From the IMG/VR virus record IMGVR_UViG_3300037493_003062, positions 1-29,170 of that record: a stretch of 29,170 bases of DNA. One strand, written 5' to 3'. The position numbers were made by a program, and so were the translations under genes. The notes beneath the pieces are model-generated. The model was not told the origin of the DNA and did no database searches. It worked only from the letters and a program-made list of their open reading frames with translations. This stretch comes from a virus. Shown piece by piece: positions 8,750-12,189 of the stretch (the stretch's first letter is position 1; every line of letters begins with the position of its first letter).

Positions 8750-9814
8750 ATGAGCACAGAACTTGAACTAGCCAACATTTCCGACACCGCCATTGAAGTC
8801 ATGCCACGGGCAAACGGCATTGCGAAATTTCAGCCGTTGCTTGCGTCGTTGCCTGAGGCTGAAGCCCGCATTGCGTCGCTCGCCATCACCGACACCGACA
8901 CTCCGCAGGAAATCGCCAAGAAGTCGGCGGCGGCAAAGCGCCTGCGGTTGGATGCCTTCCGGGCCGTCCGTATTGAAGCCAAAAAGATTCACGGTGAGTT
9001 GAAAGAGGGGGTCTTGAAAATCACCCGCGAGCTTGACGGTGCCGAGCGTGAGATCCGCCAGCGTTGCGAGGGTCACGAGGAAACCCTATCGCAAATCGAA
9101 CAGCACGCGGAGAAGATGGAGCAGCAACGCCGCGCCACACTTCGAGAAGCTCGTGCCGCCGAAATCTCCCCATTCCTCACCGGCCCGCTAACGGTTGACC
9201 TTGCGGACCTGACGGAAGAGCAGTTTGCCGCGCAACTCACCGATGCCCGCGACCTCCACGAAATGCGGGAGGCGAAGCGCCGGAAGGAGGAAGAGGACCG
9301 CAAGGCCGCGGAGGCGGCGGCAGAAGCCCAGCGGAAACGGATTGAGGCGGAGCAGGAGGCGGAGCGGAAGCGGCTGGAGGAGGAAAACCGTAGGCTTGAA
9401 GCCGAGCGGAAGGCGGAGCGTGAGGCGGCGGAAGCTGAGCGGAAGCGCATCGAAGCCGAGCGCGAGGAAGAGCGGAAGGCGGCGGCTGAGGAGCGCCGGA
9501 AGCTGGAGGAGGCACAGGCGGCGGAGCGGGCGCGACTGGCAGAAGAGGCGCGGAAGGCGGAGGCGGAGCGGAAGCGGCTTGCGGATGCGGCGGCGGAGGC
9601 AGCAGCAGCCAAAGCCAAAGAGGAGGCAGATGCGGCAGCGGCCAAACGTCGCGCAGCGGCAGCGCCCGACGCGGCGAAGATTGCCACGCTAGCGGAAGGA
9701 ATCACTGCCCTCATCCCGGAGTTTTCGAACCCGCTACTCGCCGGATCGGTTGCGCGTGCGGTCGGACTCGCCACCACAGAGCTTGCGCGGATTCGCGAAA
9801 AGCTGGAAGGTTGA
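8750..9814 (+). CDS. Long charged-helix protein, DUF1351-like, 354 aa
   Basis: Residues about 1-150 form the N-terminal domain, with repeated helical segments (KKSAAAKRLRLDAFRAVRIE, KITRELDGAEREIRQRCEGH). They resemble the DUF1351-type proteins often found beside RecT in phages; I am not certain of the family. Residues about 165-310 are almost only Glu, Lys, Arg and Ala in i/i+4 order, which predicts a stable single alpha helix or coiled coil. The end (LAEGITALIPEFSNPLLAGS) is a small globular cap. The function is unknown, perhaps a DNA-metabolism scaffold. The DNA of the helix is internally repetitive (GGCGGAGCGGAAG-type units). The stop lies inside the next promoter. Confidence 0.7.
   Translation: MSTELELANISDTAIEVMPRANGIAKFQPLLASLPEAEARIASLAITDTDTPQEIAKKSAAAKRLRLDAFRAVRIEAKKIHGELKEGVLKITRELDGAEREIRQRCEGHEETLSQIEQHAEKMEQQRRATLREARAAEISPFLTGPLTVDLADLTEEQFAAQLTDARDLHEMREAKRRKEEEDRKAAEAAAEAQRKRIEAEQEAERKRLEEENRRLEAERKAEREAAEAERKRIEAEREEERKAAAEERRKLEEAQAAERARLAEEARKAEAERKRLADAAAEAAAAKAKEEADAAAAKRRAAAAPDAAKIATLAEGITALIPEFSNPLLAGSVARAVGLATTELARIREKLEG
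9280..9615. repeat. Internally repetitive DNA coding for the charged helix
   Basis: Degenerate units built on GCGGAGCGGAAGCG and GAGGAGGC recur many times with strong purine bias on the + strand. They result from the Glu/Arg/Lys/Ala helix repeats. The complementary strand therefore shows a long false Ser/Ala-rich frame. Such repeats can slip and change copy number. Confidence 0.6.
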
Positions 9815-9973: not shown

Positions 9974-10768
9974 ATGAGAATTCGCACGATCAAGCCGGAG
10001 TTTTTCACCCACGACGGCATCTTTGAGGCCGAGGAGGAAACGGGGCTTCCGCTCCGCCTTGCCTACATCGGATTGTGGTGCGCCGCCGACCGGGAAGGGC
10101 GGTTCCGGTGGGAGCCGCGCAGGCTGCGGGTGCAGATCCTCCCCTATGACGACGTGGATTTTTCACGCGTGCTTGACGCGTTGGTCACGCGTGGATTTCT
10201 CGTGAAGTACGCGTCGGAAGGGCGTGAGTTTGGGGCGATTCCATCGTTTCCGCGTCACCAGATCATCAACAACCGGGAAAGGGAGTCGGAATTGCCTGAG
10301 CCGTTGAGTATCAACATCATTGACGCGTGCCCCACGCGTGAACCACGCGAGCCCCACGCCGGGAAAGCGGAAGGGAAGGGAAGGGAAGGGAATATGGAAG
10401 GGAACAAGGAAGGGGAAGGGGAAGGGGAGGGGAACGCGTCGGCTACGCCTCCCGCGCCCGAACCGGAGAAACCAAAGCGGCAGAGGTTCACGAAGCCGAC
10501 CCTTGACGAGTGGACCGCCTACGCAAAGGAGATGGAAAACCCATTGACCGAGAATCAGGCACTGGGAGCGTGGGACCACTACGAAGCCAACGGTTGGAGG
10601 GTAGGAAAGGTCGGGATGAGCGACTGGCAAGCTACCCTCCGTGGGTGGTCCCGCAGGCAAAGGGAATTCCAGCAAACCAAAACGGCACCCCAATCAAACC
10701 GAACCGCAACACTCGCAGATGGCACTGTCGTCAAAAACGTCCGCAGTCAGTTTGCCAAATCCCGATAA
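9974..10768 (+). CDS. Phage replication initiator-like protein (O/DnaD type), 264 aa
   Basis: The N-terminus MRIRTIKPEFFTHDGIFEAE with GLWCAADREGRFRWEPRRLR is the winged-helix start typical of phage replication organisers that bind the origin and load the helicase. A low-complexity Gly/Glu/Lys linker (about residues 128-160) is followed by a C-terminal domain (FTKPTLDEWTAYAKEMENPL and GAWDHYEANGWRVGKVGMSD) seen in many phage replication proteins. It is followed by the DnaB-type helicase. Two arrays of 11-bp ACGCGT repeats and a purine tract lie within the gene, as the lambda origin lies within gene O. It begins just after an intrinsic terminator. Confidence 0.75.
   Translation: MRIRTIKPEFFTHDGIFEAEEETGLPLRLAYIGLWCAADREGRFRWEPRRLRVQILPYDDVDFSRVLDALVTRGFLVKYASEGREFGAIPSFPRHQIINNRERESELPEPLSINIIDACPTREPREPHAGKAEGKGREGNMEGNKEGEGEGEGNASATPPAPEPEKPKRQRFTKPTLDEWTAYAKEMENPLTENQALGAWDHYEANGWRVGKVGMSDWQATLRGWSRRQREFQQTKTAPQSNRTATLADGTVVKNVRSQFAKSR
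10163..10225. repeat. Iteron array 1, 11-bp period, ACGCGT core
   Basis: ACGCGT occurs exactly at 10165, 10176, 10187 and 10209, all multiples of 11 bp apart, and degenerate copies (TCTCGT at 10198, GGGCGT at 10220) fill the register. The consensus is NNACGCGTGNN. Since 11 is not a multiple of 3, each copy falls in a different reading frame, so protein repetition cannot explain it. It is probably a binding array for the initiator encoded by the same gene. Confidence 0.75.
10321..10364. repeat. Iteron array 2, 11-bp period
   Basis: ACGCGT at 10323 and 10334, ACGCGA at 10345 and ACGCCG at 10356 are spaced by exactly 11 bp. Units read TGACGCGTGCC, CCACGCGTGAA, CCACGCGAGCC and CCACGCCGGGA. A single further ACGCGT is at 10434. 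Arrays 1 and 2 flank about 100 bp of less GC-rich sequence, which may be the unwinding region. Confidence 0.7.
10369..10433. repeat. Purine-only tract of GGGAA and GGGGAA repeats
   Basis: About 65 bases contain only A and G except for TAT at 10393-10395 and one C. Units are GGGAA about five times and later GGGGAA three times. The tract codes for the Gly/Glu/Lys linker. Runs of three to four G at regular intervals could form triplex or quadruplex DNA beside the iterons. Slippage is likely. Confidence 0.6.
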
Positions 10769-10788: not shown

Positions 10789-12189
10789 ATGAACCAAACC
10801 ACCGTCTACCGCCCCAGCGTTTACGATCCGGCGCGACCACTCCCCGGATCAGAGCAACTCGACAAACTGGTCCTGTCTTGCATGATGCAGCGCCCGGAAA
10901 ACATTCAGATCGTCCGCGACACCATCAAGGCATCCGACTTTTTCACTCCGCACTGCGCCATGATGTTCGACATCATTATCGACCGTCATGATGCCGGCAT
11001 GGCTGTGGATTGCACAGCGCTCGCATCCTACCTGCTCAACCGTGACCGCATCACCGAAATCGGCGGAATGCACCTGCTCGTCGAAATCGAAACCGCAGCA
11101 CCCTTGCCGTCACAGGCCGCAACCCGCACGCATTGCGCCGAACTCAAGCAGGCCGCAGGCAGCAGGCGCATGATTACTCTCGGGATGCAGGTTGCCGAGC
11201 TTGGATTCGCCAACGCAGACAACCGGGACACCGATCTGGCAGATGTCGTTTCCGAACTGGAGCGCATTCGGGAAAACGTCACCACCGATGTCTCCGTGCC
11301 AATCCGCCAAACGGTTCAAGAATGGATTGCTGATTACCTGTCGCCAACCCGCGACCCACGGGACCAGCCAGTCACCACTGGCATCAATGCTCTTGATCAA
11401 TTGTTTGACGGCGGCGTGAGGCGTGAGGCGTACCTGATCGGAGCAAAGACCGGGCACGGGAAGACCCTGATCAGTATGCAGATTGCTGGGAACCTAGCCA
11501 TCGCAGGCAGGCGCGGACTCATTGTGGGCTACGAAATGACCCGCAAGCAAATCCTCCAGCGGGACATCGCCCGCGAATCGGATGTTCACCTTGGCATTGT
11601 CATGCATCGACGCGAAGGCGACACTGGGGACTATGAGGAAATCATCGCAGCCGTGGACAGAATCGCCGAGTGGGATGTCCACACGATCGATAAGGCATCA
11701 ACATCGCTCCAAACCGTATGCGCCGAGGCGCGGCGACTGCACAGGCTGAAGCCACTCGACTTCATGGTCGTTGACTATCTCCAAATCATCCCACGCGAAC
11801 ACCGTCGCGATCAACGCACCGATCAACTTCTGGATTGGATGATGGTCGTTGTGAAGAGCCTGCAAAAGGAAATCGGCTGCACGCTTATCGTTCCCGTCCA
11901 ACTCAACGACGACGGACTTATCCGAGACTGCCGCACCATCGAAAACCACGTTGAAAACAACATGCGGATTGAGATGGATGTCGCTGAAGACGATGAAGGA
12001 AACGAAGTCATCCTCGACGCTGGAAGGATTCGCATCCTCAAGAACCGATACGGACCATCCAACCGGATCATCAACATCAGCAAGCACGGTGCCACCCAAC
12101 GGTTCACCGATGCAGCACCAAAGGAATCCCCGCCGCCATCGCCAAAGAAAAACACCTGGCGTGCAGGGAGGACGCGCAACGCGGATTGA
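10789..12189 (+). CDS. Replicative DNA helicase, DnaB type
   Basis: Hexameric helicase that unwinds the phage replication fork. The N-terminal domain (about residues 15-140) has the DnaB helical pattern SEQLDKLVLSCMMQRPENIQ and GGMHLLVEIETAAPLP. The RecA-like core carries Walker A GAKTGHGKT (residues 218-226), YEMTRKQILQRDIA, and Walker B FMVVDYLQII with Asp329. Further on are QLNDDG and the arginine-finger region IRILKNRYG. The length of 466 residues is typical. I start at ATG 10789; the in-frame upstream extension overlaps the initiator gene and lacks family similarity. It probably works with the protein at 9974. Confidence 0.88.
   Translation: MNQTTVYRPSVYDPARPLPGSEQLDKLVLSCMMQRPENIQIVRDTIKASDFFTPHCAMMFDIIIDRHDAGMAVDCTALASYLLNRDRITEIGGMHLLVEIETAAPLPSQAATRTHCAELKQAAGSRRMITLGMQVAELGFANADNRDTDLADVVSELERIRENVTTDVSVPIRQTVQEWIADYLSPTRDPRDQPVTTGINALDQLFDGGVRREAYLIGAKTGHGKTLISMQIAGNLAIAGRRGLIVGYEMTRKQILQRDIARESDVHLGIVMHRREGDTGDYEEIIAAVDRIAEWDVHTIDKASTSLQTVCAEARRLHRLKPLDFMVVDYLQIIPREHRRDQRTDQLLDWMMVVVKSLQKEIGCTLIVPVQLNDDGLIRDCRTIENHVENNMRIEMDVAEDDEGNEVILDAGRIRILKNRYGPSNRIINISKHGATQRFTDAAPKESPPPSPKKNTWRAGRTRNAD

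Follow-up and report, generated by a model that had tools for sequence, protein, structure and literature searches.

The replication origin of phage lambda lies within gene O, where four iterons of 18 bp are accompanied by an AT-rich element of 38 bp (PMC3349717). In plasmid pSK41, the N-terminal winged helix of the initiator binds boxes located centrally in rep, and the ori region encodes a part of the protein that can be dispensed with (PMC5703833). The iterons of RepA_N replicons are mostly semi-palindromes arranged around a poly-A tract (PMC7145576). For mycobacteriophages, a 2020 study proposed that the origin is situated either upstream of repA or inside it (PMC7157519). A further short element, the DnaA-trio, is built of a three-nucleotide unit bound by DnaA (PMC10797057).

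The window analyzed here is the whole stretch from position 1 to 29,170 (29,170 nucleotides) of IMG/VR virus record IMGVR_UViG_3300037493_003062. It very probably contains, judging from sequence comparisons, a theta-type phage replication origin that lies within the gene for the phage's initiator. That the window is a fragment was counted against this interpretation. The gene (9974-10768, plus strand) encodes a protein of 264 aa with the PHROG annotation "replication initiation protein". Its N-terminal domain matched the profiles phrog_16167 (E 1.6e-41), PHROG 1408 (E 3.6e-23) and PHROG 2149 (E 7.2e-19), which places the protein among the phage replication initiation proteins of these groups. 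In AlphaFold models it comprises a winged helix (residues 1-110; confident, pLDDT 94 for residues 1-116), a linker predicted to be disordered (~115-172) and a helical C-terminal part (177-237). The adjoining gene (10789-12189, plus strand, with an ATG at 10789 in the listed frame) encodes a DnaB-type replicative helicase (PF03796, E 1.2e-27; phrog_19, E 3.6e-59). The initiator family and the adjacent dnaB gene were both counted in favor of an origin. In named relatives the initiator gene lies in a cro/CII-type early region and is followed by a gene for a DnaC-like loader or DnaB, and by NinB; Walker-A genes are found downstream in 27 of the 43 relatives with sufficient flanking sequence, a count too crude to be relied on. 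Upstream of the initiator gene of the window, a long Glu/Arg/Ala-rich ORF (8750-9814), probably encoding a coiled-coil protein, gave no family match except for a weak one to a tail tape-measure protein.

Structural comparison was less specific. Profile searches of solved structures revealed no relative of the initiator, and Foldseek with the initiator models gave no match at E <0.001. Fold searches with the full model and with the N-terminal domain returned generic winged helices only (Z ≤7), which was counted against an origin; 4pql_A (Z 6.5), 4pt7_B (Z 6.0) and 2v79_B (Z 5.6) were level with many unrelated winged helices, and the RepA_N and DnaD N-domains among the matches did not stand out from the others. 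Family assignment by fold was thus abandoned.

Two arrays of the hexamer ACGCGT were found 190-360 bp into the initiator gene. Array 1 (10165-10225) has exact copies at 10165, 10176, 10187 and 10209 and degenerate ones at 10198 (TCTCGT, two mismatches) and 10220 (GGGCGT, two mismatches), and encodes SRVLDALVTRGFLVKYASEGRE of the winged helix. Array 2 (10323-10361), within the DNA for the disordered linker, has exact copies at 10323 and 10334, followed by ACGCGA at 10345 (one mismatch) and ACGCCG at 10356 (two mismatches). The six exact and four degenerate copies had been listed in an earlier sequence-only reading of this DNA, and all of them were found in place; a seventh exact copy, unreported there, occupies 10434-10439, directly 3' of a GGGAA tract, and copies in similar positions occur in relatives of the STED subgroup. 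The 11-bp register described for both arrays was confirmed (10165/10176/10187/10209 and 10323/10334), as was the occurrence of copies in all three reading frames. Of the "short palindromic iteron" proposed earlier, the ACGCGT core stands, while the actual unit is 11 bp long with an 8-bp S-ACGCGT-S core. The total of ACGCGT in the window is not unusual (10 observed, 10.6 expected); seven of the ten copies are packed into 275 bp. In 100,000 synonymous resamplings of the initiator gene, neither seven copies nor three pairs at 11 bp were ever obtained (maxima 5 and 2). GC skew across the window was uninformative, with no clear switch at the arrays, and this was counted against an origin.

The distribution of the arrays was analyzed in whole phage records and in 103 non-redundant homologs, drawn from viral contigs and bacterial genomes with protein similarity as the sole criterion. 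In 18 of the 20 phage records (30-124 kb), ACGCGT-N5-ACGCGT is confined to a single cluster of ~0.25 kb; the other two, those of loci L030 and L033, contain none. Among the 103 homologs, an exact 6-mer repeat was found at a distance of 11 bp in 87, of 22 bp in 69 and of 33 bp in 29; distances of 10 (28/103) and 21 (26/103) reflect arrays with an occasional 10-bp step, and the remaining distances are far lower. The sequence-only reading had held that similar ACGCGT clusters elsewhere in the genome, or loss of the 11-bp register in related initiators, would speak against an origin. Neither was observed: the clusters in those 18 records are the only 11-bp arrays present, and the register is conserved across homologs, so that the proposed intragenic phage origin gains support from these comparisons. 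When viral contigs were scanned, without bias toward the initiator, for ACGCGT occurring three times in 11-bp steps, initiator homologs made up 69 of the 80 matches listed. When gaps of 0-30 between copies were allowed, spacings within homologs concentrated at 11 bp (66/92), followed by 10 bp (13/92) and 22 bp (9/92), and were flat outside them.

More than 100 related phages and prophages show this layout of array and tract, so that it very likely marks the start site of phage DNA copying. The prophage copies come from hosts such as Rhizobium, Mesorhizobium, Janthinobacterium, Caballeronia and Acidobacteria. The initiator family is also present in 36 PLSDB plasmid records (H81-H90 among them), e.g., of Endozoicomonas (54 kb) and Bradyrhizobium (47 kb), which are possibly phage-plasmids. 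At four further loci (L056, L077, L088 and L103), 11-bp ACGCGT arrays lie in phage genes of a replication-like, winged-helix type that seem unrelated to the initiator and did not match the profile of its family; one of these resembles DUF1376 proteins by eye. Four relatives with HQHINQRE-like motifs (L030, L033, L468 and L471) are devoid of ACGCGT; their repeats resemble GCACATGC/GCACGTGC and are, in L471, ~10 bp apart.

Directly 3' of array 2 lies a tandem GGGAA tract (10369-10434, plus strand), with GGAA every 5 bp and a coding strand almost free of T; it is absent from the sequence-only reading. The 12 GGGAA copies of the initiator gene were matched in only 1 of 20,000 synonymous resamplings; the purine run, taken in the window gene alone, is largely forced by the peptide. 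Together with array 2, the tract is conserved in 97 aligned relatives, where it begins 23-107 bp (mostly 38-56 bp) past the start of the array, the GGAA spacing is 4-7 bp (mostly 5 bp), and the coding strand is nearly T-free. No clear AT-rich unwinding element was found beside the arrays, which was counted against an origin; the AT content of the tract (~0.45) is close to the gene mean (0.43), and values of no more than 0.54-0.57 were found 5-20 bp upstream of array 2. Natural variants of the tract exist. In L230 and L253 it is inverted (TTCCC on the coding strand) and the linker is Pro/Phe/Ser-rich instead of Glu/Gly/Lys-rich, in L040 it consists of GAACA units, and in L155 it precedes the array. 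In one subgroup (L012-L026, L144, L158 and L169), an imperfect 16-bp inverted repeat, e.g., CTTGTGCATGCACAAG, is located directly before the GGGAA tract; the window lacks this repeat.

More distant relatives have other cores and tracts of 7-8 bp units containing GGAA. In Mycobacterium phage Raymond7 and Propionibacterium phage PFR2, the 11-bp spacing is combined with a TCGCGA core and an 8-bp (GGAACAGG) tract, and in Bordetella phage vB_BaM-IFTN1 and Escherichia phage Louie with a TGCAAG-type core and a 7-bp CTGATTC unit, the reverse of GGAATCA. Several of the relatives come from actinophages and bear the annotation replication initiator or RepA-like. Among 47 actinophage-type genes chosen by motif (HQ[RK][IV]D, TCGCGA core), a lag-11 repeat was present in 41 (synonymous null: mean 2.7, maximum 9). 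Of the 103 protein-selected homologs, initiators with HQx[IVL]Nx[RK]E had ACGCGT pairs in 70/82 cases and those with other post-HQ motifs in 2/21; these tallies, like the 41/47, are free of 11-bp preselection bias. TCGCGA genes carried HQ[RK][IV]D in 44/44 cases, a tally in which the ACGCGT set of comparison includes loci preselected for 11-bp spacing. The iteron core goes with the protein motif after the conserved HQ, in a pattern confounded with phylogeny; the match was counted in favor of an origin, the confounding against it.

It could be argued that the repeats are a by-product of selected peptides, namely SRVLDALxTRGF, DAxxTRxxRVxDA and the EGKGREGK linker. The same peptides do come back in relatives, and long purine runs can follow from the linker peptide by itself, the observed run being attained in 6.7% of resamplings. 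The synonymous sites speak against this explanation. In 28 aligned N-terminal domains of homologs gathered by protein similarity, the third base of the iteron codons is nearly fixed (TCA 26/26, GCG 28/28, GAC 23/23, CGT 25/25), whereas in equally conserved neighboring codons it is mostly free, typically 0.3-0.6. Such an alignment had been proposed in the sequence-only reading, and the sites proved to be frozen exactly at the iterons. Moreover, the copies fall in all three frames at a spacing that is not a multiple of 3, and the residues of array 1 are gone from the divergent STED-type relatives, which keep the wing. The inverted tracts of L230 and L253 encode quite different peptides, as do the GAACA units of L040; because of the inversions, the tract must be kept at the DNA level, and together with the tract-first arrangement of L155 these cases allow selection on the DNA to be told apart from selection on the peptide. 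The claim that the protein cannot explain the repeats was borne out by the synonymous-site, frame and inversion evidence, and a peptide origin, to which we assign hardly any probability, was rejected. It should be noted that the location of array 1 inside the winged-helix coding region and its absence from the whole STED subgroup were also counted against an origin.

The arrays might instead be operators, through which the initiator or another phage protein represses its own gene or controls copy number or partition rather than the start of replication. Phased arrays bound by winged helices also serve as centromeres and operators, and the partition protein-DNA complex 5k5q was among the Foldseek matches. 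This explanation is nevertheless improbable, given that the arrays lie 190-360 bp inside the gene and not at a promoter, that they stay together with the GGAA tract and the initiator gene even where the phages infect widely differing hosts, and that the same position is that of the origin in lambda and pSK41. A different proposal concerns the tract alone and is compatible with the arrays as origin: with its G-rich non-template strand, the tract could act through an R-loop or G-quadruplex formed during transcription of the gene, and would then not serve the initiator or the helicase as a site. The proposal is favored by the strong tendency of (GGGAA)n to form quadruplexes and by the coding-strand G-runs in 101/103 ACGCGT-class members, a set that includes loci preselected for 11-bp spacing. 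Lambda requires transcription through its origin (PMC3349717), which also fits. Against the proposal, inverted tracts are found in L230, in L253 and across the whole TGCAAG class (26/57 "other" genes). The GAACA tract of L040 and the CTGATTC tracts, moreover, have no G-runs, which weakens a G-quadruplex as the common denominator of the tracts, and we consider this role of the tract unlikely, if less so than operators in the case of the arrays.

For an origin embedded in the initiator gene, the following course of events can be envisaged. The N-terminal winged helix would bind the ACGCGT iterons, most of them situated where the disordered linker of the same protein is encoded. As 11 bp per unit is about one helical turn, the bound copies would lie on one face of the DNA and could form a cooperative complex. 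This complex might strain the adjoining DNA, where the strand-asymmetric GGAA tract would open or offer a strand-specific site, and the helicase DnaB, encoded by the neighboring gene (in many relatives the neighbor is a DnaC-type loader), may then be placed at the tract. We tentatively suggest, at somewhat less than even confidence, that the GGAA tract, which has a class-specific period of 4-8 bp, is not AT-rich and can be flipped, constitutes a distinct origin element, a strand-specific opening and helicase-loading site for a very large group of phage initiators, in which core and initiator motif would co-evolve, so that the linker would in large part be an imprint of the origin within its coding DNA.

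The function of the tract is the most interesting part of these findings, and the natural variants with inverted tracts and changed cores provide a handle on the opening of origins that have no AT-rich element. The odd conserved peptides DAxxTRxxRV, EGKGREGK and DSLNLIPDSLNLIP would be explained as translated origin DNA. Short palindromes phased at 11 bp, combined with a GGAA tract in the linker of an initiator with a winged helix, amount to a sequence rule that points to a likely origin in hundreds of phages and prophages, and in some plasmid records, that have none annotated. A literature search for ACGCGT iterons, GGAACAGG repeats and intragenic phage origins with a purine tract found nothing matching, which is weak evidence, subscription journals being poorly covered. 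The locus is well supported as an origin-type element; it is a variant that differs from lambda and pSK41 in repeat length and in that a GGAA tract takes the place of the AT-rich element.

Compared with the DnaA-trio and other unwinding elements of bacterial oriC, the GGAA tract is likewise a short tandem motif beside double-stranded initiator boxes, and it may be a strand-specific element of similar function. The trio, however, has a 3-nt unit and is bound by DnaA, whereas here GGAA units of 4-8 bp (in the aligned relatives spaced by 4-7 bp, mostly 5 bp) accompany a winged-helix initiator. For the RepA-like initiators of mycobacteriophages, the accessible part of the 2020 study (PMC7157519; phages Miko and Rachaly) mentions no iterons in repA. 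Among the RepA_N initiators and the RepA of PLE satellites, that of pSK41 resembles the present protein in having an N-terminal winged helix and binding boxes (putative ones here) central in the initiator gene, array 2 and the tract lying in the linker region; the linker encoded by this DNA is predicted to be disordered, comparable to the dispensable ori-encoded segment of pSK41, which was counted in favor of an origin. Unlike here, RepA_N iterons mostly surround poly-A and no GGAA tract has been described for them, and the RepA_N Pfam profile matched 0/40 members of the family at E up to 1. As the sequence-only reading had noted for lambda, the origin would lie inside the initiator gene. Phased initiator sites beside a distinct element, putative sites here and confined to one place in 18 of the 20 phage records, are a second common feature; the gene order agrees too, the initiator being followed by a DnaC-type loader or DnaB, with a cro/CII-type early region in relatives. 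The two differ in that lambda has 18-bp iterons and an adjacent AT-rich element, whereas the units of the present locus are 11 bp long around a core of 6-8 bp, and its GGAA tract is not rich in AT. Lambda and pSK41 are the closest working models for this locus.
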